64,000 nt of DNA from Deroplatys truncata. Lineage: Eukaryota > Arthropoda > Insecta > Mantodea > Mantidae. The DNA lies in the NCBI GenBank assembly GCA_030765065.1, contig CM060979.1:22225001-22289000 (forward strand). Reading direction: 5' to 3'. The notes beneath the pieces were generated by a model. It was not told the DNA's origin. It made no database searches and worked only from the letters and a program-made list of their open reading frames with translations. Positions 12,241 through 64,000 of this stretch are shown here, in pieces (position 1 is the stretch's first letter; each line of letters begins with the position of its first letter). The position numbers were made by a program, and so were the translations under genes.

Positions 12241-13077
12241 AAAAATCTGATATATTACACTCACATGACTTTCTCTACTCTTGTACAAACTATTTTTACA
12301 AACGCTTATTCTCCATATGCTTCATGTTAATCGAGATGTTAATCTTATTGCTAATTTTCTTGTAGATTCAAGGGGAATTGGTAGGCTTTAAGCGATAGTC
12401 AAATATTTTAAGAGCTGGTTGCTATGTGGAGTATTCCATTCTCTTTGCATTACCAGGACAAAAAAAATGAATAGCGAATATGAGAAAAAGTATAAGTATT
12501 GGAAAATTTAAGGGAATAACAAGCAATATCTCGAAAACGGTTCACTCAACAAAAAAACTGTATATGACATAAATTGTGTATTTTAACGCGATCTACATAT
12601 TTTGTGTAGTAAAATTTTGTCTATCTCTTATGCTTTACCAGTTATGCAAAAGTCGTTCACAATGAAGAATACTTTTGGAGACATTCCCAGAAAATTCAAG
12701 ATATACATTTCATTTGTCATGAAAGTATCTTAACCATATGATATTTTAATCAAAATCGTTAGAAGCATTTTTGAGAAAATTAAAATTTTCGAAAAATGTT
12801 AAATGTAAAGGGTAATCTGGGGTGGGGTTTTTTCTTGAAAACCTTCGTGTCGCATCTCTGGAAGATACTGAACCTAAATGCCAAGTTTGGTGTTTATCCG
12901 ACTGTTCGTTTCTGAGTTATACTGTTGTCATACACACACGGACATGTTTCTAAAAATTCTTTTTTTGGTTTCGGGGGTCTCAAAACATGTATTTCCGGTG
13001 AAATCTCGGTATCGAATTTTTGGGTGGAATACAATACTTCCCCTACTTACTATACGTAGTAGAGAAAGTAAAAAAAA
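12241..13077 (-). mobile_element. HINE-like element, subfamily A, near full length
   Basis: It runs from AAATCTGATATATTACACTC, with its hairpin and the repeat ACTTTCTCTACT, to TACTATACGTAGTAGAGAAA. A deletion removes part of the 3' half relative to the 14164 copy. The microsatellite is short here (ACACACACGGAC). Confidence 0.9.
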
Positions 13078-13495: not shown

Positions 13496-13847
13496 CAATC
13501 TATCACTGAATGTCTTCTCAGAAATCCTTAAAGGGCAAGTAGCTTTTTTAAATGTACAAGGTTGTCTGCGCACATTCATCTTGCCCTGTGATGACAAGCG
13601 ATGAGATTTTGAGAACAGCTAGGAAAAACATTTCGTGTACAAAACTGAGATTAGAGTTTATTTTTGATAAAATATATTGAACTTTAACACAATTATGGGA
13701 ACGAACAGGTGAAATGAAGAAGGGTAATTAATATTCCAGTAAATATTCTTTTCAGGGAACAAAATTGTTTTATTTTCTTTTAAGACGTTTTACTTTTTCT
13801 ACCACTTACCTAAAAGTTGGAAGAGTATTAAATACTATTCAAAAAAT
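13496..13847. other. No gene recognised
   Basis: AT-rich sequence between two HINE copies. Nothing further is visible. Confidence 0.4.
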
Positions 13848-14163
13848 CTGATGTGTTATACTCACATGACTTTCTCTACTCTTGTACAAACTATTTATAC
13901 AAACGCGTATTATCCATCTGCTCCATATTAATCGATATAAACATTTGCAGAGTCTATGTTATTGCTAATTTTCTTGTAGATGTAAAGGGAATATATATTT
14001 ACAAGGGCAATTTGGAAATACAGTAGCCTTTAAGCACATACATATCTCTTAATAGCTGGTTGCTAGGTGCAGCACCATTCCCTTTGCCACAGATTATAAC
14101 TCTTTGCATATCCAAGACAAAAAAACGAATAACGAATTCCCATTTGAGAAAATAAGTATTGAA
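13848..14163 (-). mobile_element. HINE-like element, subfamily A, 3' part
   Basis: The 3' end and the next 300 bp are present (TCTGATGTGTTATACTCACA to CATTTGAGAAAATAAGTATT), and then the next copy starts abruptly. The two copies share this 300 bp at high identity and lie head to tail in the same orientation. Confidence 0.9.
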
Positions 14164-15156
14164 AAATCTGATGTGTTACACTCACATGACTTTCTCTACT
14201 CTTGTACAAACTATTTTTACAAACGCTTATTCTCCATATGCTTCATGTTAATCGAGATAAACATTTGCAGAGTCTATCTTATTGCTAATTTTCTTGTAGA
14301 TGTAAGGGGAATATATATTTACAAGGGCAATATAGAAAAACAGTAGCCTTTAAGCACATACATATCTCTTAATAACTGGTTGCTAGGTGCAGCACCATTC
14401 GCTTTCCCACAGATTAATACTCCTTGCATATCCAAGACAAAAAAATGAATAACGAATTCCCATTCGAGAAAATAAGTATTGAAAAATTTAAGGAAATAAC
14501 AAGTAATATCTCGAAAATGGTTCACTCAACAAAGAAAATGTATATGACATAAATTGTGTATTTTAACGCGATCTACATTTTTGTGTAGTAAAATTTTGTG
14601 TATCTCTGATGGTTTACCAGTTATGCAAAAGTCGTTCACAATAAAGAATACTTTTGGAGACATTCCCAGAAAATTCAAGATATACATTTTATTTGTCATA
14701 AAATATCTTAAACATATGATATTTTAATCAAAATCGTTAGAGCCATTTTTGAGAAAATTAAAATTTTCGAAAAATCTTCCATGTAAAGGGTACTATGGGG
14801 TGGGGGGATTTTCTTGAAAACCTTCGTGTCGCATCCTTGGAAAATACTGAACCTAAATACCAAGTTTGGTGTTTATCCGACTGTTCGTTTCTGAGTTATG
14901 CTGTTCACAGGCACACAGACACACACACAGACACACAGCTAGACACACAGACACACACACGGACACACAGCTAGACACACAGACACACACACAGACACAC
15001 AGCTAGACACACAGACACACACACGGACATGTTTCCAAAAATGTTTTTTTTGGATTCAGGGGTCTCAAAACATGTATTTCCGGTGAAATCTCGGTATGGA
15101 ATTTTTGGGTGGAATACAATACTTCCCCTACTTACTATACGTAGTAGAGAATGTAA
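14164..15156 (-). mobile_element. HINE-like element, subfamily A, full length
   Basis: A complete copy of about 990 bp: 3' hairpin end AATCTGATGTGTTACACTCA, subterminal repeat ACTTTCTCTACT, interior, expanded microsatellite at 14911-15030, and 5' end TACTATACGTAGTAGAGAAT. It is a good reference for the family. Confidence 0.92.
14911..15030. repeat. 32-bp minisatellite within HINE microsatellite
   Basis: AGCTAGACACACAGAC recurs at 14937, 14969 and 15001, an exact 32-bp period, within (AC)n-rich sequence. It occupies the position where other copies have a short GT/GTCT run. Confidence 0.9.
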
Positions 15157-16076: not shown

Positions 16077-16980
16077 ATACGTTTTTACTTTCTCTACTAC
16101 GTATAGTAAGTAGGGGAAGTATTGCATTCCACCCAAAAATTCGATACCGAGATTTCACCGGAAATACATGTTTTGAGACCTCCTGAATCCAAAAAAAGCA
16201 TTTTTGGAAACATGTCCGTGTGTGTGTCTGTGTGTGTGTCTGTGTGTCTGTGTGTGTGTGTGTCTGTGTGTGTGTCTGTGAACAGCATAACTCAAAAACT
16301 AACAGTCGGATAAACACCAAACTTGGTATTTACGTTCAGTATCTTCCAGAGATGCGACACGAAGATTCTCAAGAAAATCCCCCCACCCCAGACTACCCTT
16401 TACATGGAACATTTTTCGAAAATTTTAATTTTCTCAAAAATGGCTCTAACGATTTTGATGAAAATATCATATGTTTAAGATAATGTCATGAGAAATGAAA
16501 TGTATATCTCGAAATTTCTGGGAATGTCTCCAAAAGTATTCTTCATTATGAACGACTTTTGCATAACTGGTAAACCATAAGAGATAGACAAAATTTTACT
16601 ACACAAAAAATGTAGATCGCGTTAAAATACACAACTTATATCATATACATTTGTTTTGTTGAGTGAACCGTTTTCGAGATATTGCTTGTTATTTCCTTAA
16701 ATTTTCCAATACTTATACTTTTTCTCAAATTCGTTATTCATTTTTTTATGTCCTGGACATGCAAAGAGAATGGAATGCGCCACATAGCAACCAGCGATAA
16801 AATATTTGACTATCGCTTAAAAGCTACCATATTCCCCTTGCATCTACAAGAAAATTACAAATAAGATTGACATCTCGATATCTCGATTAATATGAAGCAT
16901 ATGGAGAATAGGCGTTTGTAAAAATAGATTGTACAAGAGTAGAGAAAGTCATGTGAGTGTAACACATCAGATTTTTTGTA
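16077..16980 (+). mobile_element. HINE-like element, subfamily A, full length, nested
   Basis: It runs from TTTTTACTTTCTCTACTACG to CACATCAGATTTTTT. The 5' palindrome TACTACGTATAGTA, the GT/GTCT microsatellite (16218-16278), and the 3' repeat AGTAGAGAAAGT with its hairpin ATGTGAGTGTAACACAT are all present. Confidence 0.92.
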
Positions 16981-17202: not shown

Positions 17203-17466
17203 TAAATTAAATTAAGTTTTATTTATGGACACTCTTTAACTACCAGGATTTTTAGCGTTACGTTCTATATTGGGCGTGAAAGACGGAAATTTTGCCTAAG
17301 AGGCCTCTTAATTAGGCTTGAAGTTCTTTTAGTGCCGTAAATCTACGAAAACGCGGCCATGCTAAGGATTTTTACGACCGAAAAAATCCATCGCCCTCCG
17401 CCGGGTTTTAACCCGCGACCTCGGGGACTAGAGACTAGCATGGTACCACTAGACCACGGAGGACGA
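17203..17466 (-). mobile_element. tRNA-derived SINE (type 4)
   Basis: On the minus strand the head GTCCTCCGTGGTCTAGTGGT contains an A box and CGCGGGTTAAAACCC a B box. The body matches the copy at 34134-34418, and the tail is TTTA-rich (left end TAAATTAAATTAAG). It sits in the HINE phrase CTGCAAAGGTTTATTTGG; the flanks AAAGGTT and AAAGGCTT are a slightly decayed duplication. Confidence 0.85.
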
Positions 17467-17718: not shown

Positions 17719-19006
17719 AAGGGTCTTTCAACAAGAGTGTCCTATCTTTAACATGTGATAGCTGCAGTTGTTATTGAGTTACAGCAGTCACTTTTTTCAC
17801 GTGGTTACAGTTGTTATTGATAAATAGCCATGGAACGTTACAGCATTCAGCAACGCGTGGAAATTGTGAAAATTTATTATCAAAATGGATCATCTGTTCG
17901 CCAAACCTTCCGTGTATTGCGTGAAGTTTACGGTGTGCATAATCGTCCCTGTGAGAGAACGATTCGGCGTTTGATCGATAAATTTGAAAGAAGTGGTTCT
18001 GTCAGTGATCAAAGTACGCCTGTACGTAATCGACGTAAGCGCTCCAACGAAAACATAGGCGCCGTTTGTGAGAGTGTACTCGAGAACGGAAACAAATCAA
18101 TTGCTCGTCGAGCGCAAGAACTGGGGTTTTCGCCGACCACAACTTGGCGAATTCTGCATCTGGACTTGAAGTTTCACGCTTACAAAATGGTGTTCAAGAA
18201 CTAAAGCCCAACGACCATAGGTTGCGCCGTGTATTCGCTGACTGGGCTATGGAGCAATTGGAAGGATTTTTGTCGAAAAATCATCTTCAGCGACGAAGCC
18301 CACTTTTGGATGGATGGTTGTATTAACAAACAAAATTGCCGCTACTGGAGCAATCATAATCCAATGCAGATTCAAGAACGACTACTTCATCCCCAAAAGG
18401 TTACTGTGTGGTGTGGATTTTGGTACGGTGGAATCATTGGTCCATACTTTTTCTTAGATGAAGATGGAGAAGCTCTAACTGTCAATGGAGAAAGATACCG
18501 GGCTCTTATAAGGGACTATTTTTGGCCTCAATTGGATGGTATGGATCTCAGAAACATCTGGTTCCAGCAAGATGGTGCCACATGTCATAATGCTCTCGAA
18601 ACAATCGATCTTTTGAAGGAGAGGATCAGAGATTTCACCATTTCCCGTGGTGGTGAAGTTAACTGCCCCCCGAGGTCATGTGATTTAACGCCGTTGTATT
18701 ACTTCTTGTGGGGTTATGTTAAATCTCGAGTTTATGTCAACAAGCCAGAAACAGTAAATGATATTATGAATAACATCACGCGCGTTATTTGTGAAGTTGG
18801 ACCTAATTTACGTTCTTCTGTCATTGAAAATTGGGTCAAACGTATACGCGCAACCCAACGAAATCGCGGCGGTCACTTAACTGATGTTCCCTTCCACACG
18901 TAATGATATTAATTATGTTCCAAAATAAAAAAATAAATATACCTCTATCATTTATAGAACGCGTTTTATTCAAGTTCAAAGATAGGACACTTGTTGAAAG
19001 ACCCTA
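17719..19006 (+). mobile_element. DD41D-type DNA transposon with TIRs and TA target
   Basis: The terminal inverted repeats are AGGGTCTTTCAACAAGAGTG on the left and the complement of AGGGTCTTTCAACAAGTGTC on the right, both continuing into CCTATCTTT. TA flanks each end (17717-17718 and 19007-19008). Length is 1288 bp. It encodes one transposase on the plus strand. Confidence 0.92.
17830..18903 (+). pseudogene. DD41D-type transposase, two offsetting frameshifts, third Asp lost
   Basis: The transposase starts at ATG 17830 (MERYSIQQRVEIVKIYYQNG) with a paired helix-turn-helix to about 18180. The coding path shifts frame near 18185-18190, reads NDHRLRRVFADWAMEQLE, and shifts back near 18265 at CRKIIFSDEAHFWMDG (first catalytic Asp). 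It continues to VWCGFWYGGIIGPYFF, the second Asp in FQQDGATCHNA, and CDLTPLYYFLWG, where the expected third Asp is Tyr. The spacing from the second Asp to this Tyr is 41 residues. The stop is at 18901-18903. The element is otherwise nearly whole, so inactivation looks recent. The frame judgements are mine by eye. Confidence 0.92.
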
Positions 19007-20224: not shown

Positions 20225-21207
20225 AGTAAATGTTTCCTAATAAATGGAAATTTGTTGAAGTGTGTCCAATTATAAGAAAGTTGACCCTTCTAAAGTTGAA
20301 AATTACAGACCAATTATCATTATTTCTGCCCCGGCTAAGATATTTGAGTAAATTCTATACAGTCGTATTTATACCCATGTTAAAAGTTACATATCTGACA
20401 ACCAACTTGGAGTTTTAAGTAAACGGTCTACGTTATCTAACACGATGAATTTTTCGCAGTTCGTTGACAATGTGCTTAACCAACAAATGCGTGTTGATAA
20501 AATTTACAGTGACTTTTCTAAGATTTTGATAGTGTCGATGATGATATCCTGTTATTTAAATTAGCTAATTTTGGTTTTTCGCTTTCAATGTTAAGACTAA
20601 TTTCCTCTTACTTAATTAACAGGAAACAGTATGTTTATGTTCATTGTCTCTCTACTATGTTTAACGTACCTTCAGGCCTGCCTCAGGGCTCAAACCTTGG
20701 ACTGTTATTATTTTTGTTATTTATTAATGATATAGGCGGCGCCGTGGCCGAGTGGTTAGACCGCTCGCCTCCCACCGAGGCGGACCGGGTTCAATCCCAG
20801 GGCCCTGCATGTGGGATTTGTGGTGGACGAAGCGGCGTCTGGGCGGGTTTTCTCCGCCATTCATTCCATCAACTGCTCCATCATCACCTTTCCTTTCATC
20901 CATTTCACCAACATTTCGCTTCATCTACTTCCTTCATCCCATACCAGGCATCGGGCTGATCACCCATCCTGGATATTCTGTCTGATCCATGAGTGTCTGC
21001 TCCTCGACGGGCTCTGACCCCAGGCACCCGCCTGTAAGTCCTGAGGGTGTAAGTCCTACATGAGAGGAGGGTAAACAGATAATGAATGAATGAATTAATG
21101 ATATAACTGTGTTAAATACCCGGAATTTTTGTTACTTTCGGACGATTCAAACTTATTTAAATCTGTTACAACGTGCGCAAATGTATCAGAGTTACAAGAA
21201 ATATATA
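20225..21207 (+). pseudogene. LINE reverse transcriptase fragment, split by a SINE
   Basis: A non-LTR retrotransposon reverse transcriptase, which copies element RNA at a nicked target. In order: ENYRPIIIISAPAKIFE (about 20300-20350), a region ending KIYSDFSK then FDSVDDDIL (first catalytic Asp area, about 20505-20545), SYLINRKQYVYVH, SGLPQGSNLGLLLFLLFIND (motif B, about 20670-20730), then beyond the SINE LLLSDDSNLFKSV (about 21131-21165), the YADD-equivalent motif with both Asp retained but Ala changed to Ser. Frameshifts and stops interrupt it throughout. It ends near 21207 at a simple TA run beside a mariner. Endonuclease and C-terminal domains are absent. Confidence 0.9.
20735..21093 (+). 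mobile_element. tRNA-derived SINE (type 1) with 12-bp target duplication
   Basis: The head has an A box (TGGCCGAGTGGTTAGA) and a B box (CGGGTTCAATCCC), then a 280-bp body and an AATG-repeat tail. The duplication ATTAATGATATA is perfect at 20723-20734 and 21094-21105, so both ends are certain. It interrupts the LINE reverse transcriptase just after FLLFIND. Confidence 0.95.
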
Positions 21208-22540: not shown

Positions 22541-23155
22541 ACTTCTAACGGGGTGCACAACTTTGATTTCAAGTTCAGCCTACTGGCAATTACGCTTTGT
22601 ATTTGCACATATTTAATAAAACGAATTGGTTCGATTAGGTTTTACTTTTCATTTTGTTTTTTACATGATTAATTTCTCATGGCGCGCACGTTATCTGTTC
22701 ACAATACAAATCGTCATACTTAAATTTATCGCAATTCGTTGTAAAGTTAACCTACACGTTATATTCACAGCTTTCTTTGATCTAAAACGTTATTCTCTTA
22801 CCTAGTATAATATAAGTAAATATTAAATGGCGAAAATGATGAATTCTAAAGAAACTCAAATGGAAGAACCAGATGAAATTACAGAAGCAGCAGAAAGTTT
22901 AACATTAGAAGTAAATCTAGAAAGCAATATGATATAGCATTTAATGGCTTTATTGCCTAGTATAAGGCAAAACATTTTGAAAATAATTTCACTGAAAATG
23001 ACTGGTAGCGAATCAAAAAAAAAACTATAAAAACATCTGACATCTCTCCGTTTTAATGTCTCTCTTGTTTATCAACCGCGTTCTAAACGTGATCTCTGTT
23101 AGTTTCAGGAATCAATATAATATTATTCATATTTTACAAATTCGAGTGCTGTCTA
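22541..23155. other. No gene recognised
   Basis: AT-rich. One 36-codon acidic frame at 22827-22937 (MAKMMNSKETQMEEPDEITE...) is open, but nothing supports it as a gene. Confidence 0.4.
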
Positions 23156-23156
23156 A

Positions 23157-24058
23157 AATATCTGATGTGTTACACTCACATGACTTTCTCTACTCTTGTA
23201 CAAACTATTTTTACAAACGCTTATTCTCCATCTACTTCATGTTAATCGAGATAAACATTTGCAGACTCTATCTTATTGCTAATTTTCTTGTAGATGTAAG
23301 GGGAATATATATTTACAAGGGCAATATAGAAATACAATAGCCTTTAAGCATAGACATATCTCATAATAGCTGGTTGCTAGGTGCAGCACCATTCCCTTTC
23401 CCACAGATTAATACTCTTTACATATATAAGACAAAAAAATGAATAACGAATTCCCATTTGAGAAAATAAGTATTGAAAAATTTAAGGGAATAACAAGCAA
23501 TATCTCGAAATTGGTTCACTCAACAAAAAAAAATGTATATGACATAAATTGTGTATTTTAACGCGATCTACATTTTTGTGTAGTAAAATTTTGTCTATCT
23601 CTTATGGTTTACCAGTTATGCAAAAGTCGTTCACAATAAAGAATACTTTTGGAGACATTCCCAGAAAATTTAAGATATACATTTTATTTGTCATAAAAAT
23701 ATCTTAAACATATGATATTTTAATCAAAATCGTTAGAGCCATTTTTGAGAAAATTAAAATTTTCGAAAAATCTGCCATAAAGGGTACTCTGGGGTGGGGG
23801 GATTTTCTTGAAAACCTTCGTGTCGCATCTCTGGAAGATACTGAGCCTAAATACTAAGTTTGTTGTTTATCCGACTGTTCGTTTCTGAGTTATGCTGTTC
23901 ACAGACACACACAGAGACACACACACGGACATGTTTCTAAAAATGCTTTTTTTGGATTCAGGGAGTCTCAAAACATGTATTTCCGGTGAAATCTCGGTAT
24001 CGAATTTTTGGGTGGAATACAATACTTCCCCTACTTACTATACGTATTAGAGAAAGTA
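23157..24058 (-). mobile_element. HINE-like element, subfamily A, full length
   Basis: It runs from ATCTGATGTGTTACACTCAC to TACTATACGTATTAGAGAAA, with the family landmarks in order. The microsatellite is ACACACAGAGACACACACAC. One base of the 5' palindrome is changed. Confidence 0.92.
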
Positions 24059-28082: not shown

Positions 28083-28972
28083 GATAAAAGACTGATGTGA
28101 TGCACTCACGTGACTTTCTCTACCCTCTATCGTTTATTAGTGAGTATACAAACTATTCTTACTAAAGCTTATTTTTATATCTACTGCGTTTTAATCCAAA
28201 TAAACTTTTGAAGAAATAGCTACATTACACATTTCGTTATAGATACAAAGAGAACAGCGATAGTCAAATGTTTAACAACTGGATGCTATATGCTGGCCTT
28301 AAAATTCCATACTGTTTCCATGACATCGCGAGAAACAACTCAATGTTGAAAGGACTTTAAAGAGTGACCAAGAAATGAACCATTCGAACCATTTAATAAC
28401 GGATATCTCAGAAATGGATTATGCAAAAAAAAACTTATTTGAAATAAATTGTGTGTTTTAAAGAGATCTCGTACATTTCTCGTGTAGTACGTTTTCGTCT
28501 ATCGCTGAACATTCACCAGTTATACAAGATTATACTAAATTCTTTCCAAATGAAGAGAGCTTAAAAGGTATTTTCATAAAATTCAAGATATACATTTTAT
28601 TTGCCATGTAAATATTTTTAATATATAGTATTTTAATCAGAATTCTTAGAGCTTTTTTTTAGAAAATCAAAATTTTCGAAAAGTGTTCCATGTAAAAGGT
28701 AGTTGCGTGTGAGGGATATTCCTGAAAATCTTCGTGCCACTTGCTTGGAAGATACTAAACTTAAATACACCCCAAGTTCGGTATTTATCCGACTTTCCAT
28801 TTTTGAGTTATGCTGTTCACACACACACACACATGGGAATTTTTCTAAAAAATGCTTTTTTTGGATTTGGGGCTCTCAAAACATGTATTTCCGGTAAAAT
28901 CTCGGTATAGAATTTTTGGATGGAATGCAATACTTCTCTACCTACTATGTGCATGGCAGGGAAAGTAAAAAC
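28083..28972 (-). mobile_element. HINE-like element, subfamily B, full length
   Basis: It runs from AGACTGATGTGATGCACTCA to GTGCATGGCAGGGAAAGTAA; the 5' repeat has two changes. The microsatellite is a short CACACACACACACAC run at about 28818. Confidence 0.9.
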
Positions 28973-28979
28973 GGAATTC

Positions 28980-29445
28980 GGAAAGGAAAAGTACATAGAA
29001 GTTTGCAATAATGGAGAAAGGGAAGCATAGCATGGTTTAAGCTAGGGGTAAGGAAGCTTAGGAACGCAGAGGCAATATTATACAAAGAATATGCCCGATA
29101 CGCGGAGAAATTAAAGATGGAATGAACATTCTCATGGTATCTAAAGGAACAAATACTTATTAGAGAGAAATGGCTAAAAGTGATAGCCTTGTAAAATAAA
29201 TAAGAGGTCAGATAAGAGGTTAGGAGAATTCTTGTGCATTGTGAGGAGGAAATTGAAATGGGAAGTTGAGAGAAATTGAAAATAGTATGTGAAAAGAGGG
29301 AGAGTGAGGAAGATCGTAGAATTTAAGAATGTAGGAGATACAACTCAGAACGTAATATCGGAGTTATAGGGAACAAGTGGCCAGGACCAATCCCACTATA
29401 CCTCAAATGTGTAAATAAGCTAGCACAAACCTAAAATTAAAAACA
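28980..29445 (+). pseudogene. LINE C-terminal region scrap
   Basis: Plus-strand frames read EKYIEVCNN, then GSIAWFKLGVRKLRN, KLKME, TFSWYLKEQILIREKWLKVI and later LGEFLCIVRRKLKWE. This resembles the region after the reverse transcriptase of the LINE seen on the minus strand at 38480-39180, which reads EKYIDICNKLGREGFAWTRT and GVRNLKG. Stops and shifts are frequent and no catalytic residues are present. Assignment rests on the match between the two copies. Confidence 0.5.
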
Positions 29446-31273: not shown

Positions 31274-32076
31274 GCTTTCTCTACAGCGTACATAGTAGGT
31301 AGAGAAGGTTTTGCATTCCAACCAAAAATTTGTTACCGAGATTTCACCGGAAATACATGTTTCGAGACCCCTGAATCCAAATAAAGCCCTTTGGAAGTAT
31401 GTCCGTGTGTGTGTGTGTCTGTAAACAGCACAACTCAAAAATGAAAAGCAGGGCAAACACCAGACTTGCTATTTAGGTTTCGTACCTTCTGAAGATGCGA
31501 CACGAAGATTAAAAAAAAATTTCCACGCCAAACTACCCTTTACATGGAGCATTTTTAATTTTCTAAAAAATGACTAACGATTTTGATTAGAATACCATAA
31601 CTTTAAGATAGTTACATGACACAAAAAATGTGTAACTTGAATTTTCTGAGACTAGTCTTCATTCGGAAGGAATTTTGTGTTATAATATTGTATTACTAGT
31701 AAACGTTAAGCGATAGACCAATACGCACTTCACGAGAAATGTAGACCTCTTTTAAACTCACGGTTTATTCCAAATAGCTTTACATGTGGCATCAGTCATT
31801 TCCAAGACATCCATTATTAGTGGTTCGAATTGTTCATTATTTAGTCCTTCGTTTAAAGACCTGTCGAATTTCAACTGTTTCTCGCGATGTCATGGAAACA
31901 GTAAGGAATTTTAAGGCCAGCATATAGCGTTCAGTTGTTAAACATTTGACTATCGCGGTTCCCTTTGTAACTATAACGAAATGTGTAACGCAGCTATTTC
32001 CGGAAAAGGTTTATTTCGATTAAAATGAAGTAGATATGAAAATAAAGTTTTGTAAAACGGTAGAGGGTAGAGAAGG
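31274..32076 (+). mobile_element. HINE-like element, subfamily B, full length
   Basis: It runs from GCTTTCTCTACAGCGTACAT to GTAGAGGGTAGAGAAGGTC. The terminal hairpin after the 3' repeat is missing because the next copy starts within the repeat. Confidence 0.88.
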
Positions 32077-32077
32077 T

Positions 32078-32903
32078 CTACAACATATAGTAAGTAGGGG
32101 AAGTATTGTATTCCACCCAAAAATTCGATACCGAGATTTCACTGGAAATACATGTTTTGAGACCTCCTGAATCCAACAAAAGCATTTTTGGAAATATGTC
32201 CGTGTGTGTGTGTCTGTGAACAGCATAACTCAGAAACGAACAATCAGATAAACACCAAACTTGGTATTTAGGTTCAATATCTTCCAGAGATGCGACACGA
32301 AGGTTTTCAAGAAAATCTCCCCACCCCAGATTACCGTTTACATGGAACATTTTTCGAAAATTTTAATTTTCTAAAATATGGCTCTAACGATTTTATTAAA
32401 ATATAATATGTTTAAGATATTTTCATGACAGATATAATGTATATCTCGAATTTTCTGGGAATATCTCCAAAAGTATTCTTCATTGTGAACGACTTTTGCA
32501 TAACTGGTAAACCATAAGAGGTAGATAAAATTTTACTACACAAAAAATTTAGATCGAGTTAAAACACACAATTTATGTCACACATTTTTTTGTTGAGTGA
32601 ATCATTTTCGAGATATTGCTTGTTATTCCCTTAAATTTTCCAATACTTTTTCTCAAATGGGAATTCGTTATTCATTTTTTTATGCCCTGTATGTACAAAG
32701 AGAATGGAATACTCCACATAGCAACCAGCTCTTAAAATATTTGACTATCGCTTAAAGCTTACCATATTCCCCTTGCACCTACAAGAAAATTAGCAATAAG
32801 ATTAACATCTCGATTAACATGAGGCATATGGAGAATAAGCGTTTGTAAAAATAGTTTGTACAAAAGTAGAGAAAGTCATGTGAGTGTAACACATCAGATT
32901 TTT
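32078..32903 (+). mobile_element. HINE-like element, subfamily A, lacking the 5' tip
   Basis: It starts at ATATAGTAAGTAGGGGAAGT, just inside the 5' repeat, and ends with GTGTAACACATCAGATTTTT. The junction with the preceding B copy falls within the shared repeat sequence. Confidence 0.9.
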
Positions 32904-33471
32904 TTTCAAGTATAGATAACTAAACACAATAAACTCTTATGTTTAAACACAAGAGAGAGTTTCTTACGGTCTAGCAATAAGTTTCTAATAATTAGTTTGC
33001 CTAGCTGTTATAAGCATAAAAGTAGCTGAAGTGTTTTGCGAAGAGCACACTGTTCTAGTGTGGAGTGTACACATTATGGGTGGTGGAATGAGGTGCAAGG
33101 ACGAGCTGTCAAAACCATGAAGTGGAAAAGGATGAAGCGGGTGGTCGTGTCGACTTCCTCATCTCTTTCTTCACTCAAAAGTCCCCACGGCTGTAGCAGG
33201 AGGAAATTACATCGGCCATACAATAATAAGCGAATGGATATATATAATCGTAGAGCTGAGGAGGAGGAGGAGGAGGAGGAGGAGGAGGGAGGGGGCTCAA
33301 TCAACTGCCACATCCTTACAGGCAGAACAGCTCTGACGTCAGTAAGCAGTCTACTGTATTCCAAATTGAACTTTTCTATCGGGATCCTAGTACAAATTTC
33401 AACATTTTAATTCCTTCTCCTTTCAACGCCTATCTGTTACGCTCTCATTACTTTCTCTGCGCACTAGAGTT
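32904..33471. other. No gene recognised; (GGA)n run
   Basis: Unassigned sequence. A GGA/GAG repeat at 33257-33294 ending in GGGAGGGGG is a purine tract with G-quadruplex potential, and it makes poly-Ser or poly-Glu frames that are not real proteins. Confidence 0.5.
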
Positions 33472-36245: not shown

Positions 36246-37424
36246 GGAATTAATTGTTCTTCCACACAAGCGTGTGTTGGACAGGGTTGGAAAGGTAGAA
36301 TCAGGCGAGTGAAAAATTCAATGCCATAGTTGCGATTTGATCCACGGATCTCTCGGTCTCCGTCCGATTGCTCTAACCACTGAGCTACCATGGCAACATG
36401 CTGGCATGCCACTAAATTCTCCAGCTGATTCGCGTTTTTACTTTCTCTACTACGTATAGTAAGTAGGGGAAGTATTATATTCCACCCAAAAATTCGATAC
36501 CGAGATTTCACCGGAAATACATCCCCCTGAATCCCATTTTTGGAAACATGCCCGTGTGTGTGTGTGTCTGTGAACAGCATAACTCAGAAACGAATAGTCG
36601 GATAAACACCAAACTTGTTATTTAGGTTCAGTATCTTCCAGAGATGCGACACGAAGGTTTTCAAGAAAATCCTCCCACCGCAGATTACCCTTTACATGGA
36701 ATATTTTTCGAAAATTTTAATTTTCTCAAAAATGTCTCTAACGATTTTGATTAAAATATCATATGTTTAAGATATTTTCATGACAAATGAAATGTATATC
36801 TCGAATTTTCTGGGAACGTCTCCAAAAGTATTCTTCATTGTGAACGACTTTTGCATAACTGGTAAAGCATAAGAGATAGATAAAATGTACTACACAAAAA
36901 AAGGTAGATCGCGTTAAAATACACAATTTATGCCATATACATTCTTTTTTGTTGAGTGAACCATTTTCGAGATATTGCTTGTTATTCCCTTAAAATTTTC
37001 AACACTTATACGTTTTCTCAAATTCGTTATTCATTTTTTTTTGTCCTGGTAATGCAAAGAGAATGGAATACTCCACATAGCAACCAGCGCTTAAAATATT
37101 TGACTATCGCTTAAAGCCTACCAATTCCCCTTGCATCTACAAGAAAATTAGCAATAAGATTAACATCTCGATTAACATGAAGCATATGGAGAATAAGCGT
37201 TTGTAAAAATAGTTTGTACAAGAGTAGAGAAAGTCATGAGAGTGTAACACATCAGATTTTTTCTGGTAAACCACAAGGAAATCTCAAATTGTATTGAGAT
37301 GGCATACCCAATGGCGACTTACAATGTTGTAAGTACTTGTCCCGGGCTTCATAGTTTCAACCACTATTAGGTCAGTTAATGGAATTAATTGTTCTTCCAC
37401 ACAAGCCGTGTGTTGGATCGGGTT
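36246..37424 (-). mobile_element. Compound tRNA-SINE bounded by 45-bp direct repeats
   Basis: A tRNA-like head on the minus strand (GGTAGCTCAGTGGTTAGAGC at about 36395-36375, weak B box GTGGATCAAATCGC) has a body ending at 36246. The end segment TGGAATTAATTGTTCTTCC...GGGTTGG recurs at the other side (37378-37424). The flanks TTATATTTA and TTGTATTTA look like a 9-bp duplication around the whole unit. It may be a SINE dimer. A HINE is nested in it. Confidence 0.65.
36432..37262 (+). mobile_element. HINE-like element, subfamily A, nested in the compound SINE
   Basis: It runs from TTTTTACTTTCTCTACTACG to AACACATCAGATTTTTT. It has a small deletion after GGAAATACAT. The microsatellite is GTGTGTGTGTGTCTGTG. 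Confidence 0.92.
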
Positions 37425-39900: not shown

Positions 39901-40081
39901 AAAATAATTAAAACAATAAGCGCCCAACAAATAAGATAACACAAGCCATTAAGAACTGCGACACTTTGTCAACCTCTCTCCAAGAATCATCTACTCCCCA
40001 TAGCTCTGCTCCATGTAACACATTGTTTTCTACTGTGGCGGAGTAAACTCCTTCATTGCCGGACATTTTTGTCCGGAAATG

Positions 40082-41014
40082 CTTTTACTTTCTCTACTAC
40101 GTACAGTAAGTAGGGGAAGTACTGTATTCCACCCCAAAATTTCATACCGAGATTTCACCGGAAATACATGTTTTGAGACCCCCTGAATCCAAAAAAAGCA
40201 TTTTTGGAAACATGTCCGTGGGTGTGTCTGTGTGTGTGTGTGTGTGTTTGTGTGTGTCTGTGTGTGTCTGTGAACAGCATAACTCAGAAACGAACAGTCG
40301 GATAAACACCAAACTTGGTATTTAGGTTCCGTATCTTCCAGAGATGCGACACGAAGGTTTTCAAGAAAATCACCCCACCCCAGATTACCCTTTACATGGA
40401 ACATTTTTCAAAAATTTTAATTTTCTCAAAAATGGCTCTAACGATTTTAACTAAAATATCATGTGTTTAAGATATTTTCATGACAAATAAAATGTATATC
40501 TTGAATTTTCTGGGAATGTCTCCAAAAGTATTCTTCATTGTGAACGACTTTTGCATAACTGGTAAACAATAAGAGATAGACAAAAGTTTACTATACAAAA
40601 AATGTAGATCGCGTTAAAATACCCATTTTGTCTCATATACATTTTTTTTTGTTTTCGAGATTTTGCTTGTTATTCCCTTAAATTTTTCGATACTTATTTT
40701 CTCAAATGGGAATTCGTTATTCATTTTTTTGCCTTGGATATGCAAAGAGTATTAATTACTCTGTGGCAAAGGGAATGGTGCTGCACCTAGCAACCAGCTA
40801 TTAAGAGATATGTATGTGCTTAAAGGCTACTGTATTTCTATATTGCCCTTGTAAATATATTTTCCCCTTACATATACAAGAAAATTAGCAATAAGATAGA
40901 GTCTGAAAATGTTTATCTCGATTAACATGACGTAGATGGAGAATAAGCGTTTGTAAAAATAGTTTGTACAAGAGTAGAGAAAGTCATGTGAGTGTAACAC
41001 ATCAGATTTTTTTT
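40082..41014 (+). mobile_element. HINE-like element, subfamily A, full length
   Basis: It runs from CTTTTACTTTCTCTACTACG to AACACATCAGATTTTTTT, about 930 bp, with all landmarks. It contains a long GT/GTCT microsatellite at about 40215-40275 and keeps the full 3' half seen at 14164. Confidence 0.93.
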
Positions 41015-41189
41015 AAAATTGATCTTATAACACTCATGGCCATTTTACATCTTATGTCTATTAGTAATGGATAGAGCCGAGACAGCCGGGCTGAAGCAAG
41101 GTTAACAGTACGGCTGACATGTGGGCGCTCGGTAAGGGTGGTGGACAGGGTACTTTATTGGAACAGGAGAAGGTAGTCGGGGAGTACAG

Positions 41190-42955: not shown

Positions 42956-43931
42956 TGAGGCAGTATTTTTAACACTTAAATAATTTCAGTCTAGTTATAT
43001 AACATGTAAATTCAATAACAGCCCACCTTGAAGCAATATGTGTATGTAATAATTTGTAAAATGTATGCAACAGTCATTGCATATGCTTATATTATTGTAA
43101 ACATGTTCAATAATGTTATGTGAATGCATTACGTAATTTAATAATGTAGGAGCTGTGAGAAATAGTTTAAAAGTTGCTAACAATGAGGTAACAATGAGGT
43201 AACCTTGAGGAAATAATGAGTTTGAGGGTTTAAATGTTACTTGTGATTCTTGGAAGCATTGATGTAATTTTTGTGAGAGTTTATAAAAATAGCCAACCAA
43301 CAACCAGAAAAAGCTTTAGTTAAATGAAGGTATTCTATTGGACTAGGATTAGCCAATCAGAGACTTAAAATACAGAAATTTACAAGTTTAGATGGTTGAA
43401 ATCAATTCAGTTGCCTCCAAACAGTGCTCATAACCAGACGTGTTGCTTCTAGACAGTGATCATAACCAGAAGCGCGATGTGTCCTCGAGAAATTAATTAC
43501 GTATTCGTGTGAGACAAAAATAGTATACTTGTTAAAAAGTGCAAGTATTAAATAAAAGAATCTCACAGCTCTCGATATCAGTGAACTGGTATTTAAATTG
43601 TGTCAAGGATTAATAAAAAGGAGTGAATTAAACTTTAAATCTGTGTAAGCCTACATTCTTGTCGTATCACAACCCTGCCAAGACTTCCATGTCTCTAACA
43701 ATAATACTGACGCAGCCGAGGCAAACATAAATATAATATTTAAAGAAACAGTAAAAATACATTTGGGGCGAAGGCTACCGGAAACTGTTTACTATACGTG
43801 CGGTTGCAACGAATTTCAAGTACGGCTACCCAACAGTTGAAATATAAGACAACTCGTTCAATACAAACTACTTCAAATTGACGCCCAAAGCGTGGTAAAA
43901 AAAAAATAACATAACAAACAATCATTTCCCA
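42956..43931 (+). mobile_element. Solo LTR, family 1
   Basis: It runs from TGAGGCAGTATTTTTAACAC to CATTTCCCA. Near the 3' end one primer-binding-site-like unit is present (CAAATTGACGCCCAAAGCGT). The flanks AGTT (42952-42955) and ACTT (43932-43935) differ by one base. A SINE begins about 14 bases downstream. Confidence 0.88.
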
Positions 43932-46945: not shown

Positions 46946-47191
46946 CGATAATTCCTCTATACTTAGTAACTAGCTCTATAATTAACGCTTTTTCGAACGA
47001 TGAAAAATTACATCCGCTGTATCTAGATTTTCAGTTAATATCGCGATTCTAATATAAAAAATCTGATGTGACACATTCAAATGGCTTCTCTACTCTCCAT
47101 CGTTTATTTGTGGGTATACAAACTATTATTACTAAACACTATTTTCTATCCACTAAATTTTAATCCAAATAAGCTTTTGCAGAAATAGCTA

Positions 47192-48472
47192 TTAGGGCGG
47201 GTAGAAAAGTAACGCACAATTTTTTTGCCTTGGTATTGCAGCTGGAATGTTGCAATTTCACACAGATAATGTTTGAAGTTTTCACTACAGAGGGTATTTT
47301 TTGTTTCATGTGCAGATCTTGCGAGAGAAGCGTGTACTACGCAACAAAGATGGCGCGCATGTTACTGTCGTCCACGTGTGAAGAGCAGAGAGGTATGGTC
47401 AGATATTTGCGGGACAAAGGACATAAATCTAGTGAAGTTCACAGGGACATGCGTGGCGTATATGGGGATGATTGTATGGACCGTAGCAATGTCTCCAGGT
47501 GGTGTGCATTCTTCCTAGAGGGGCATGTGAACATTAGTGATTTGCCATGTTCCAGGAGACCGGTAGCAGCTGCAACCCCGCAGAATGTCAGGGGCATTGA
47601 GGCGGCAACTGCGAACCTTATCGCAACAGTTCAACATTTCCTATGATATTGTTCATGACACGTTGAAATTTCGTAAAGTTAGTGCTCGCTGGGTGTCTAA
47701 GAACCTGACAGACAACCACAAGGGCTAACGAATGATGACGAGCTTGGATCACCTAACGCGGTACACCGCAGATTCCTTTCTGAAAGGAATCGTCACTGGT
47801 GATGAGTCGTGGGCATACCACTACACGCCCGAAACCAAGCAGGCAAGCGTGGAGTGGAGGCATGCTGGTTCCCCAGTGAAGAACAAATTCAAAGTGACTC
47901 AACTTGCTAGGGAAGTGCTTGTGACGTTGTTCTGGGATAAGCATGGTGTTGTATTGGTGGACTTTGCTGAAGACAGGGCCACTGTGAATGCTGCAGCCTA
48001 CATGAAAACTTTGGTGAAGCTGCGTCGTGCCCTTCGTGACAAACGCCACATGAATGCTGACGATGTCAAAATTCTTCACGGCAATGATCGCCCCATGTTG
48101 CTGCTGTTATTCCTCAGAAAATCACCAAATTTGGTTAAGAGATGCTCCAGCACCAACCATACAGTCCGGACTTTGCACCATCGGACGTTCATCTGTTTGG
48201 TCTCATGAAGAAATTCCTGGCCGGCCAACGCTTTGCGACAGATGCGGAAGTAAAATCAGCAGTCCGCAGATGGCTATACTCCAAGGAAACGGACTTCTAC
48301 GACAGGGCATATTGAAACTGGTATCACGATGGGAGAAATGTGTTGAGAAACTTGGTGACTATGTGGAAAAGCAGATAAAATGTGTTAGTCCATTTGTGAT
48401 TTTTGTTGCTGTTTTAACTATTAAGCTTTCACGTAAAAGAATTATTGTGCGTTACTTTTCGATCCGCCCTCG
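47192..48472 (+). mobile_element. Mariner element with TIRs and TA duplication
   Basis: The left TIR is TTAGGGCGGGTAGAAAAGTA and the right the complement of CGAGGGCGGATCGAAAAGTA, both continuing ACGCACAA. TA at 47190-47191 and 48473-48474 restores the host HINE phrase AGCTACATTACACATTTCG exactly. Length is 1281 bp. Confidence 0.95.
47353..48400 (+). pseudogene. Mariner transposase (DD34D type), second Asp changed to Gly
   Basis: It begins MLLSSTCEEQRGMVRYLRDK with the mariner helix-turn-helix (EVHRDMRGVYGDDCMDRSNV, about 47430-47490) and SRRPVAAATP. A frameshift lies near 47615-47630; then QQFNISYDIVHDTL, a stop after DNHKG, first Asp in VTGDESWAYHYTPETK (about 47790-47835), LVTLFWDKHGVVLVDF, KILHGNDRPM (about 48070-48095) where the usual HDN is HGN so the second catalytic Asp is Gly, then a stop in FG*E, third Asp in SPDFAPSDVHLFG (about 48165-48200), and after another shift KLVSRWEKCVEKLGDYVEKQ. 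It is dead by both catalytic substitution and frame damage. Confidence 0.93.
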
Positions 48473-50016: not shown

Positions 50017-50836
50017 TAGGGTAGTTAAGTTATATTCGAACCCACTCGCGGCCTCTCTCTACTGCGCGAGGCAGCCGGCGGTCACCGGGAAAATTACGCC
50101 GGCAGAGGCGGACTAAAATCCTTATCTTATAATAGAAGCTGGAAATGTTGACCTTCTGCTCTCAAACAGGCAGCATATCTCGTGTAAATATTCTCGCTCA
50201 CTCTCCGAAGCTCAGCAGCAGCAGCAGCAGGAATTCTTGTGATTTCTTGCACAATGCTTTCTCTAAGTTCCTGAAGTGTGCGAGGATTGGAACGATATAC
50301 TTTGTCTTTTAAAGAACCCCATAAATAAAAATCAAAATCGGTAAGTCAGGAGAACAAGGGGGCCATAAATCAACACTAATTATTCTGTCATCAAACACCT
50401 CTCTTATTACATGTAATGATTCGGCAGCCGTATGTGTTGTTGCAGAATCTTGCTGGAACCAACCATACGATTTCTCTTCTTCTGTCAAGCGATTGCAAAA
50501 TGACCTCAGAATTAACCTCTCATATCGCTCTGCATTTATTGTTTCATCAAAGAATATAGGCCCTATTATTCTTCTAGCATTTATCGCACACCACACTTCA
50601 ATTTTCTGATCATAATGAGGCGTTTCATCACAAGAATTCCTGCTGCTGGACTTTGGAGAGTCAGTGAGAATATTTACAGGAGATATGCTGCCTGTTTGAG
50701 AGCAGAAGGTCAACATTTGCAATTATAAGGTAAGTATTTTAGTCCGCCTCTGCCAGCGTAATTTCCCCGGCGACTGCCGGCTGTCTCGCGCAGTAGAGAG
50801 AGGCCGCGAGTGGGTTCGAATATAATAACTACCTTA
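50017..50836. mobile_element. Palindromic DDE transposon derivative inside a HINE
   Basis: The left end TAGGGTAGTTAAGTTATATT and the right end complement TAAGGTAGTTATTATATTCG are the same transposon terminus. TA flanks both ends, and removing the element restores the host phrase CTTAAGGTATTTGCGTAA. The left arm carries most of a transposase C-terminal half; the right arm repeats only its last 100 bp. Same family as 9686-10615. Confidence 0.9.
50130..50625 (-). pseudogene. DDE_3 transposase C-terminal half in palindrome
   Basis: The minus strand reads PHYDQKIEVWCAINARRIIG (the VWCA segment just after the first catalytic Asp), PIFFDETINAERYERLILRS, second Asp in SYGWFQQDSATTHTAAES, then DRIISVDLWPPCSPDLPILI, where a frame change hides the third Asp (the other frame reads DFYLWG-like FDFYLWGSLKDKVY), and the C-terminus. 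The right arm (50626-50730, plus) repeats the end, IPAAGLWRVSENIYR and CLRAEGQHL. A CAG/CTG run of 5 units occurs at about 50214-50230. Confidence 0.87.
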
Positions 50837-53016: not shown

Positions 53017-53918
53017 TTACTTTCTCTACTACGTATAGTAAGTAGGGGAAGTATTGTATTCCACCCAAAAATTCGATACCGAGATTTCACCGGAAATACA
53101 TGTTTTGAGATCCCCTGAATCCAAAAAAAGGATTTTAGGAAACATGTTGGTGTGTGTGTCTGTCTGTCTGTGAACAGCATAACTCGGAAACAAAGAGTCG
53201 GATAAACACCAAACTTAGTATTTAGGTTCAGTATCTTCCAGAGTTGCGACACGAAGGTTTTCAACAAAATCCCTTCACCCCAGATTACCCTTTACATGTA
53301 AGATTTTTCGAAAATTTTAATTTTCTCAAAAATGGCTCTAACGATTTTGATTAAAATATCATATGTTTAAGATATTTTCATGACAAATAAAATGTATATC
53401 TTGAATTTTCTGGGAATGTCTCCAAAAGTATTCTTCATTGTGAACGGCTTTTGGTAAACTGGTAAACCATAAAAGATAGACTAAATTTTACTACACAAAA
53501 CATGTAGATCGCGTTAAAATACACAATTTATGTCATATACATTTTTGTTGTTGAGTGAACCATTTTCGAGATATTGCTTGTTATTCCCTTAAATTTTTCA
53601 ATACTTATTTTCTCAAATGGGAATTCGTTGTTCATTTTTTGTCTTGGATATGCAAAGAGTATTAATCTGTGGCAAAGGGAATGGTGCTGCACCTAGCAAC
53701 CAGCTATTAAGAGATATGTATGTGCTTAAAGGCTACTGTATTTCCAAATTGTCGTTGTAAATATATATTCCCCTTACATCTACAAGAAAATTAGCAATAA
53801 GATAGAGTCTGCAAATGTTTATCTCGATTAACATGAAATAGATGGAGAATAAGCGTTTGTAAAAATAGTTTGTACAAGAGTAGAGAAAGTCATGTGAGTG
53901 TAACACATCAGATTTTTT
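53017..53918 (+). mobile_element. HINE-like element, subfamily A, full length, nested
   Basis: It runs from ATTACTTTCTCTACTACGTA to AACACATCAGATTTTTT. It is very similar to the copies at 40082 and 14164, including the 3' block with ATTCCCCTTACATCTACAAG. Confidence 0.93.
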
Positions 53919-60990: not shown

Positions 60991-61077
60991 CATCCAAAAA
61001 CATTTAATGCAGAGATAACAACAAGCCATTCAGATTTAGGCCTGTACATCCGAACCAAAATAATTACTTCATGGATA

Positions 61078-62012
61078 AAAATCTGATATGTTACACTCAC
61101 ATGACTTTCTCTACTCTTGTACAAACTATTTTTACAAACTCCTATTCTCCATCTATTTCATATTAATCGAGATAAACATTTGCAGAAACGATCTTTTGAA
61201 ATACAAAGAGAATTACATTTTACACATAGTGACCAGTTCTAAAAAGGCTTAGGGCCTACTATGTTCCCCTTGTTTTGTATTTTCAAGGGCAACATAGAAA
61301 TACAGTAGCCTTTAAGCATAGACATATCTCTTAATAGCTGGTTGCTAGGTGCAGCACCATTCTGTTTGCCACAGATTAATACTCTTTGCATATCCACGAC
61401 AACAAAACGAATAGCGAATTCCCATTTGAGAAAAAGTATAAGTATTGGAAACTTTAAGGGAATAACAAGCAATATCTCGAAAATGGTTAACTAAAAAAAA
61501 TGTATATAAATTGTGTATTTTAACGCCATCTACATTTTTTGTGTAGAAAAATTTTGTCTATGTCTTATGGTTTATCAGTTATGCAAAAGTCCTTCACAAT
61601 GAAGAATACTTTTGGAGACATTCCCAGAAAATTCGAGATATACATTTTATTTGCCATAAAAGTGTCTTAAACATATGATACTTCAATCTAAATCGTTTGA
61701 GCCATTTTTGAGAAAATAGAAATTTTCGAAAAATGTTCCAAGTAAAGTATAATCTGGGGTGGGGGATTTTCTTGAAGACCTTCGTGTCGCATCTCTGGAA
61801 GATACTGAACCTAAATACCAAGTTTGGTGTTTATCCGACTCTTCGTTTTTGAGTTATGCTGTTCGCAGACACACACACGGACATGTTTCCAAAAATACTT
61901 TTTTTGGATTCAGGGGCCTCAAAACATGTATTTCCAGTGAAATCTCGGTATCGAATTTTTGGGTGGAATACAATAGTTCCCGTACTTACTGTACGTAGTA
62001 GACAAAGTAAAA
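61078..62012 (-). mobile_element. HINE-like element, subfamily A, full length, in a LINE codon context
   Basis: It runs from AAATCTGATATGTTACACTC to TACTGTACGTAGTAGACAAA and GTAAAA. Removing it joins TCATGGATA to ATATGGTCTC and keeps the LINE reading frame open (SWI-IWSQNQ), giving an insertion between A and A, that is T and T on the element strand. The exact split within the A run is ambiguous. Confidence 0.93.
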
Positions 62013-62539
62013 ATATGGTCTCAAAATCAGGGAAACAAGCTACTTACTGTAATAGGATCTTCAAACAACAAATGTACTTTTACAAACTTAAACAGGAAAC
62101 ATCAACTTATCATTTCCCGTTTAAGAATTGGAGATACAAAGATAACACACTCCTATCTGATCACCAAAGAAACTCAGCCGCGGTGTTCAACATGCAAAAT
62201 TCCATTGACAGTTTCCCATGTACTCGTAAGAATGCCAACGTTATAATATATAACATCCCAAATAATATTAGATATTGTAATGATTCAACAATGCATAAAA
62301 AGACTGTAATGTTCTTACAAACTATACAACTTTATATTGTAATATAATTATAACTATTCTTTAATTGTATTGTTCACATAAGAAAAACTTTATCTGTTTA
62401 TTACAAAATGATATTTTTATGTATATTCTTAGAAATCTATTAATGTTCAACCACCACTGTATTAATGTAAGAGTCGGGAATAGACCTTTGTGAGTTAAGG
62501 CGACTTAAAATAAATAAATTAATTAAAAAAAGTAATTTT

Positions 62540-64000
62540 TAGTAAAAGGTCGTGTGTGTCTGTGCTTGTGTGTCTTTAAACAGCATAACTCAAAAACGAA
62601 AACTCTGATAAATACCAAACTTGGTTCCAAAAATGCAACCTGAATATTTTCAAGAAAATGATCCCACCCCAAACTACTTTAAATGGAAACATTTTGTTAT
62701 TTTTAATTTTCATTAAAATGGTTCTAACGATTTTCTATAAATACCATATGTTGGAAATATTTGTGTGACAAATAAAATCTATATCTTGAATTTTCTGAGA
62801 ATTAAAGTCCTTTTCATTCTGAACAACTTTGGTATAAGTGGTAAACCGTAAGAGATAGACAAAATCTTATTACACAAAAATGTACATTTCGTTGAATCAC
62901 ACAGTTTATGTTTCGTAACATTTTCTTTGGTGGAGTTTACATACCATTTCTGAGTAAAAAGTGGATACCGAGATTACACCGGAAATACATGTTTTGAGGC
63001 CTCTGAATAAAAGAAAAGCATTTTTAGAAAAATGTCCATGTGTGTGTGTGTTTGTTTGTGAACAGCATATCTTAAAAACGAAAAGTTGGATAAATACAAA
63101 ACTTGGTATTTACGTTCAGGTCTTCCAAGAATGCGATACGAAGATTTTCAAGAAAATCCCTCCATCCCAAACTAGTCTTTACATGGAACATTTGTTTAAA
63201 TTTTTGATTTTCTAAAAAATGGCTAACGATTTTGATTGACACGTTATATATTAAAGATACTTACATGATAAATAAAATGTACAACCTGAATTTTCTGGGA
63301 AGAACCTCTGAAATCCTTTCGTTCGCAATAAATTTTGTATAATATTGTATAACTGGTAAACGTTAACCGATGGACGAAAACATACTACACAGAAAATGAA
63401 CATCTGCTTAAAACACACAATTTATTTCAGATAACCTTTTTTGTGGCATCAACCACTTCCGAGGTATCGTTTATTAATGGTTCGAATTGTTTAATACTTA
63501 GTCATTCTTTTCAAGTTCTGTCAATTTTCAGTTGTTTATCGTGATGTCATGGAAACAGTATGGAATTTGAAGACTAGCTTATAGCGTCCATTCTTAAACA
63601 TCTGACTATCGCTGTTCTCTTTGTATCTATAACGAAATGTGTAATGTAGCTATTTTTACAAAGGTTTGTTTGCAAAATATAGAAATAGAAAATAAGCTTG
63701 AGTAAGAGTGATTAGTATATCCACTAATAAACAATAGAGGGTAGAGAAAGACAAGTGAGTGTATCACATCTGATTTTGGTTGTTGATTTGAATTTTCAAA
63801 AACATACTTTTCACAACCGGTTAGTCGCTATTCGTTTTTTTCCTAGTAGTGATGCAAATTTTAAAGTCATCATATAGTCATCCGCTTTCTAAAAAAATCT
63901 ATCACTCAAGTCTACTGTAACCATCCTATACCTATGACGAAATGCGAAAATGAGTAATGAAGGTTTATATGTAAAAAGAAGTAGATAGAAGAATAAGCCT
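62540..64000 (+). mobile_element. HINE-like element split by another, running off the window
   Basis: It starts near the microsatellite (GTGTGTGTCTGTGCTTGTGT) and runs to CATACCATTTCTGAGTAAAA (about 62956). It resumes at about 63778 (GTTGTTGATTTGAATTTTCA) and continues to the window end in the AAAAAGAAGTAGATAGAAGA segment, about 60 bases short of the expected 3' tip. Confidence 0.85.
62957..63777 (+). mobile_element. HINE-like element, subfamily B, nested, lacking the 5' tip
   Basis: It begins GTGGATACCGAGATTACACC and ends GTAGAGAAAGACAAGTGAGT then GTATCACATCTGATTTT. Orientation is the same as its host. Confidence 0.9.

Follow-up and report, generated by a model that had tools for sequence, protein, structure and literature searches.

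A very abundant, probable HINE family with an open-framed Helentron partner, and a helper that may carry two 5' ends

The repeats that make up about a third of the window, a 64-kb stretch of DNA (G000:C5:22225001-22289000) from a genome of 4,289,915,091 bases on 818 contigs, are very probably HINEs, non-autonomous members of a family of Helentrons, that is, of endonuclease-bearing rolling-circle elements of the Helitron2 type (probability about 0.93). We base this assignment on 5' and 3' tips that the repeats have in common with an autonomous-looking Helentron, together with insertion into T runs without duplication outside the run. A sequence-only reading of the window had already placed the repeats among the non-autonomous relatives of Helentrons (DINE-1/INE-1 type), and the tips found on an open-framed Helentron as well as the T-run insertion support that placement.

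The family is evident from counts as well as from alignments. When as many as two mismatches are allowed, the window contains 62 occurrences of the 12-base 5' terminal repeat ACTTTCTCTACT; the expectation is 7.2 (sd 2.86), and none of 100 shuffles exceeded 15. A blastn search with the unmasked copy 16087-16980 returned 45 HSPs over 19,199 bp (30.0% of the window), the matches of its reversed control being confined to microsatellites. Masking the microsatellite in this single query left 29.4% of the window covered, and the masked young query combined with two older subfamilies covered 20,286 of 64,000 bp (31.7%) in 34 merged intervals; the reversed masked queries had zero matches in the window. 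Both the reality of the family and its reported share of about a third of the window were thus borne out. Pairwise comparison of 11 full or near-full copies separated a young group of nine, with mutual identities of 86-96%, from two older, divergent copies that are 69-74% identical to the young ones and 79% to each other. No stop-to-stop frame of at least 120 aa lies wholly inside any full-length copy in the window; the frames 28945-29322, 40030-40407, and 61853-62347 overlap copy ends and extend outside the copies. The sequence-only reading had seen no Rep/helicase partner in the window, and, in agreement, none of the matches listed from a genome-wide PF14214 search (150 of 291 candidates scored) falls inside it. 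The copies and their parts in the window are as follows.

12241..13069, minus strand: full-length HINE copy
13840..14167, minus strand: tandem-repeated 3' element part behind copy 14162..15154 (TRF: 320-bp unit x 2)
14162..15154, minus strand: full-length HINE copy singled out by the sequence-only reading (alignment and tip search)
14171-14187, minus strand: hairpin of copy 14162..15154
14189-14200, minus strand: 3' partner repeat of copy 14162..15154
about 14906-15029, minus strand: microsatellite of copy 14162..15154
15143-15154, minus strand: 5' tip of copy 14162..15154
16087..16980, plus strand: full-length young HINE, the query copy, 96-99% identical to its six best matches elsewhere
16087..16120, plus strand: 5' terminal repeat ACTTTCTCTACT and inverted partner AGTAGGGGAAGT, forming the 5' hairpin
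16213..16280, plus strand: GT/GTCT microsatellite
16741..16747, plus strand: T7 run (query 655-661), recurrent insertion site in sister copies
16938..16949, plus strand: 3' subterminal repeat AGTAGAGAAAGT
16951..16967, plus strand: 3' hairpin ATGTG-agtgtaa-CACAT, followed by CAGA and a T run
23155..24057, minus strand: full-length HINE copy
28086..28966, minus strand: older-subfamily HINE copy (71-74% to young copies)
31274..32078, plus strand: older-subfamily HINE copy (query 2-864), directly adjoined by the next copy
32077..32904, plus strand: HINE copy (query 7-891)
36440..37262, plus strand: full-length HINE copy
40087..41015, plus strand: full-length HINE copy
53019..53918, plus strand: HINE inside an older copy (left part query 194-304, right part 337-421), left flank TT only
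61077..62008, minus strand: full-length HINE copy
62956..63777, plus strand: HINE copy without 5' tip (query 49-889)

In the query copy, the inverted repeats at 16087-16098 and 16938-16949 are complementary at 12 of 12 bases, the 5' repeat standing at the very tip and its 3' partner subterminally with about 26 bases beyond it, just as had been described. The microsatellite, earlier placed about 120 bases from the 5' end, begins about 130 bases in. A "small palindrome" had been noted near the 5' tip; it is present but was understated, as the tip pairs with the adjoining AGTAGGGGAAGT into one long hairpin of -15.8 kcal/mol (RNA parameters). The 3' end runs in the order AGTAGAGAAAGT, small hairpin, CAGA, and Ts, so that the element has the tips 5' ACTTTC and 3' CAGATTTT and lies between T and T. 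The ATGTG...CACAT hairpin is kept in young copies and imperfect in several old ones, and in three of the listed copies CAGA is not immediately followed by T. The copy that had been given as 14164..15156 does carry the full architecture, including the hairpin and CAGATTTT, but aligns two bases away, at 14162-15154, and its 5' tip (ACATTCTCTACT) contains one mismatch. From this anatomy we infer a route in which the Rep protein of a Helentron would nick the 5' tip in trans, a helicase would peel off one strand, the 3' repeat and hairpin would serve as terminator, and the strand would be joined between T and T at a new site.

Genome-wide, TT directly precedes 168,868 of the 173,596 exact 20-base 5' tips (97.3%), in line with the proposed insertion between T and T, and the remaining 4,728 (2.7%) lack a preceding TT. 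The sole true, albeit paralogous, empty site for a HINE comes from autonomous Helentron copies: two of them (C9 and C5) read GGCTACTGTA-T8-CTATATTGCG, and a third (C8) holds the occupied version GGCTACTGTA-T6-[HINE]-T7-CTATATTGCG, from which we conclude that the element went into the T run with five Ts added. Target-site duplications of 2-9 bp, had they been consistent, were to count against the Helentron assignment according to the sequence-only reading; no consistent one was seen, as the empty site gains only these five Ts and the left flank is not repeated on the right at the copies whose left flank is TT only (53019, 15154, L002, and L010). At nested sites the gain is 4 to 7 Ts, judged against a T7 target. 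Since the targets are themselves T runs, a duplication made of Ts alone would look the same as Ts that the element brought along; the flanks read here thus exclude a fixed duplication longer than the Ts, while one consisting of Ts would be possible. The same doubt about T duplication is voiced for mite HINEs in the available part of PMC4067079.

Members of the family often insert into each other, presumably because each has T runs of its own, a T7 run around position 658 and another run at the 3' end. The best HINE matches (40 of 1,005 candidates scored) gave thirty loci for inspection; ten C15 loci with common flanks count as one, which leaves 21 distinct loci, 7 of which show nesting at the T run near 658. 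The matched copy sits inside this run of another copy in L003, L006, the C15 group, L018, and L025, and is itself interrupted there by another copy in L027 and L028; a neighbouring copy in L010 also lies at the run near 658. In L005, L028, and the C15 group, copies are joined head to tail at the T run that ends the element. In L090, the 3' end of a Helentron is followed by a HINE remainder and then by a second one, each resuming at the T run near 658. The ten C15 loci (L011-L017 and L019-L021; G000:C15, 105.59-107.50 Mb) repeat the same nested HINE arrangement with its flanks over about 2 Mb and represent a large segmental or tandem amplification.

The autonomous partner was sought with the PF14214 profile, which gave at least 152 matches in the genome (150 of 291 candidates scored); among the matches listed, the open frame reaches 1,000 aa or more in 30 and 2,000 aa or more in 18. 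They form two groups, one degraded, with stops in many members and scores up to 196 bits, and one young, at about 104 bits, with long open frames. The domain scan concerns one autonomous copy, C9, whose open frame of 2,324 aa contains Herpes_teg_N (1.9e-9) and DUF6570 (4e-17) at the N-terminus, followed by PF14214 (Helitron_like_N, 3.6e-28), PIF1 (8.9e-29), and a C-terminal endonuclease; the latter, Exo_endo_phos_2, scores 1.6e-6 when the C-terminal 235 aa are scanned alone and is not listed at 0.01 with a longer piece. The N-terminal part of this frame (L061-L062) also includes a long run of charged repeats, to which the length range of the long frames, 2,108 to 2,543 aa, is perhaps due. The helper protein scores best against a protein of the spider Araneus ventricosus (53% identity); 16 of the helper's 26 best relatives carry a species name, and 15 of these 16 are arthropods, with a snail second best, so that an arthropod host is probable.

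About 900 bases past the stop codon, the Helentron ends in TGTAGAGAAAGTtATGTGaatgtaaCACATCAGATTTTTTT, and this 3' end was found in 5 of 5 copies read there (C9, C13, C5, C8, and C1); the 20-base 5' tip has an identical reading in C9, C5, and C13. The C9 3' tip matches the HINE at 94.9% over 39 bp, and a Rep-helicase element with the 3' end of the HINEs, for which the sequence-only reading had suggested a search, was therefore found, complete with PIF1 and endonuclease. The sharing of the last 30 bp that was to be looked for holds for this 39-bp tip but does not extend to the subfamily: identity between C9 and HINE 3' ends drops from 90% over 40 bp to 80% over 50 bp and 70% over 60 bp, below the threshold of 80% over the last 60 bp that PMC4067079 sets for one subfamily, so that the sequenced Helentron belongs to the same family and a different subfamily. 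Moreover, HINE positions of about 755-852 have no clear match in the 12-kb stretch that holds the sequenced Helentron. Given this gap and the 70% value, the true partner may be another autonomous subfamily that stands closer to the HINEs.

The inner 5' end of the Helentron is 84-85% identical to HINE 1-747 in four copies (C9, C5, C8, and C13). All four of these copies, read upstream, carry a HINE piece that ends at 658 directly ahead of the Helentron 5' tip. This outer piece is 92-97% identical to young HINE 1-658 (in C8 only from 205); the 5' tip of the piece itself is visible in C9, C5, and C13, whereas the fetched stretch of C8 starts inside the piece. C9 and C13 agree at the inner junction but not in their outer flanks, and in neither of them does a HINE remainder follow the 3' end. 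Because both outer flanks of C13 come from one old inverted HINE split near query position 125, and neither outer flank of C9 is HINE, C9 and C13 seem, as far as their junctions tell, to have moved as a composite that reaches from the HINE 5' tip to the Helentron 3' tip. The copies with a HINE remainder behind the Helentron are harder to place. The remainders of C8 and C1 are 98.1% identical, and in these two a Helentron may lie within a complete HINE; that of C5 is 91.5% and 92.5% identical to them, and C5 is consistent with the composite unit but ambiguous, since each of two nested copies is a possible source of the remainder.

If a Helentron sits within a HINE, copying would start at the 5' tip of the surrounding HINE and run on to the 3' tip of the Helentron inside; the product would be autonomous and have two 5' ends, of which the outer stems from the HINE. 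We speculate, at slightly less than even odds, that the T runs of the short elements are preferred landing sites for the helper, that the helper is copied from the outer HINE 5' end, that the non-autonomous derivatives in this way keep supplying the autonomous lineage with new 5' ends, and that the dominant autonomous lineage is a chimera with two 5' ends. It is unlikely, though worth considering, that the composite is no mobile unit and that C9, C13, C5, and C8 arose from separate insertions into HINEs at the same T run or by segmental duplication: the T run is a recurrent target, the nearly identical C8 and C1 remainders leave room for a Helentron in a complete HINE in at least these copies, and loci sharing flanks, as by segmental duplication, do occur elsewhere in the genome (the ten C15 loci). 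Against this stand the inner junction common to C9 and C13, the absence of a HINE remainder past their 3' ends, their unlike outer flanks, and the derivation of both C13 flanks from one old HINE.

As to the identity of the short elements, we consider it very improbable that they derive from an endonuclease-less Helitron2-type element or from canonical Helitrons rather than from Helentrons. Older Helitron-like copies with the motif RGLPHAH are also present in the genome (7 of the 20 degraded loci L031-L050, the other 13 having no match in the motif search), but canonical ends (5' TC, 3' CTRR, and insertion between A and T; PMC5148889) are absent from the copies read, and the element that shares its tips with the HINEs has both an endonuclease and the RGS signature. 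Its Rep motif VEFQMRGSPHEH (RGSPHEH) occurs in 10 of 10 young loci (L051-L060), and the S or L at this motif position distinguishes Helentron from Helitron according to PMC4067079; SP was found in 99 of 120 listed relatives, the remaining 21 giving no match in the motif search. That a DDE transposase, of Tc1/mariner or other type, moved the repeats as a MITE family has hardly any probability left, for although the 12-bp inverted repeats look like terminal inverted repeats and Tc1/mariner-type frames are present in the window, the 3' repeat is subterminal, neither TA nor another fixed duplication was seen, TT precedes 97% of the tips, the empty site gains Ts only, and the partner with the same tips encodes Rep, helicase, and endonuclease, which largely refutes this reading. 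Among the sequences compared here, no DDE element bearing these tips came up.

Beyond the window, the exact 30-base 5' tip of these HINEs occurs 65,403 + 65,635 = 131,038 times in the genome, and its reversed control 0 times; this copy number is very high and exceeds that of the mite and fly families. The mean density is 30.5 exact 30-base tips per Mb, compared with 5 in the 64 kb of the window, which is richer in the family than the genome average. In 17 stretches of 3 kb taken at fixed positions, the family covers 7,958 of 51,000 bp (15.6%, bootstrap 6.4-25.6%); 7 of the 17 have any family match, and three exact 30-base tips were present where about 1.6 are expected from the genome mean. Two samples scaled by tip density gave about 8-12% of the genome, and we thus put the family's share of the 4.29-Gb genome, as a rough estimate, at about 8-16%. 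The loci L031-L050 had been tried as a background sample, in which one young query matched 932 of 69,411 bp, and were set aside, as they were chosen around another element and, we think, lie largely inside it. Viral contigs gave 0 exact matches to either tip pattern. On G000:C1, near 8.177/8.187 Mb and 13.833/13.843 Mb, 5' tip groups of similar spacing lie in mirror image on opposite strands, which suggests inverted duplications.

Other repeats share the window with the HINEs. Tc1/mariner-type transposase pieces (DUF4817, Mos1 HTH_48, and DDE_3, the DDE_3 match being under the curated cut-off) lie at 17824-18204, 47173-47646, and 50309-50722, and 6 of the 10 scanned window frames had no Pfam match. 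A weak RVT_1 match at 20522-20959 (21 bits, under the cut-off) is perhaps the remnant of a non-LTR retrotransposon. The tRNA-like sequence at 36322-36394 (Rfam tRNA, 31.2 bits, just above the cut-off; no ARAGORN call) is perhaps the head of a tRNA-derived SINE, and a stretch near 17390-17465 resembles it by eye. An 11-base unit (TAACAATGAGG or a rotation) forms four short tandem arrays at 43178-43220, 51431-51469, 56599-56640, and 60066-60091; its presence in four separate arrays suggests a dispersed repeat carrying a minisatellite. Besides, a 40-base unit is repeated 4.5 times in tandem at 60808-60990.

The closest known systems are the HINEs of the mite Metaseiulus occidentalis and DINE-1 of Drosophila, which, as far as the available part of PMC4067079 describes them, have subterminal repeats of 12-15 bp, a microsatellite, and a 3' stem-loop as here, T-rich targets without any target modification found, variable terminal Ts, and an autonomous Helentron partner; DINE-1 also has the 5' inverted partner. 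With the Helentrons in that source, the present element has in common the order of Rep, PIF1, and endonuclease domains and the RGSPH.H signature; a second frame, coding for RPA, is present in the mite element. It differs in its N-terminal charged repeats and Herpes_teg_N-like domain (PF04843), a domain also found in some of the listed relatives, and in the HINE piece ahead of the 5' end of the autonomous copies read upstream. Several 5' termini on one 3' terminus are described for FoHeli, a Helitron2 of Fusarium oxysporum, and PMC5148889 suggests that they arise when elements insert into their own kind and copying then starts at the leftmost 5' end, the same route as considered here for the composite helper. 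According to the available part of that paper, fungal Helitrons showed no endonuclease and their duplicated 5' parts are typically shorter than 200 bp, whereas the outer part here measures about 658 bp and stems from the non-autonomous partner. A very high share is likewise seen in gomphocerine grasshoppers, where PMC7486953 gives a helitron contribution of 7-20% across repeatomes, a figure for all helitrons and not for one family. HINEs and Helentrons have been published before, as have Helitrons in high abundance and double 5' termini. The system described here is thus of a known kind; with its size, its open-framed partner, and the composite, it is a good example, though one with precedents.

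To our knowledge, rolling-circle transposition of Helentrons is known mostly from sequence comparison, and the open-framed, recent-looking partner offers a natural donor-helper pair that could serve its study. The nested copies supply insertion sites before and after the event, and the family itself accounts for a considerable share of the 4.3-Gb animal genome. Moreover, the two-ended helper would be a clean animal example of the model put forward for fungal Helitron2 elements in PMC5148889.
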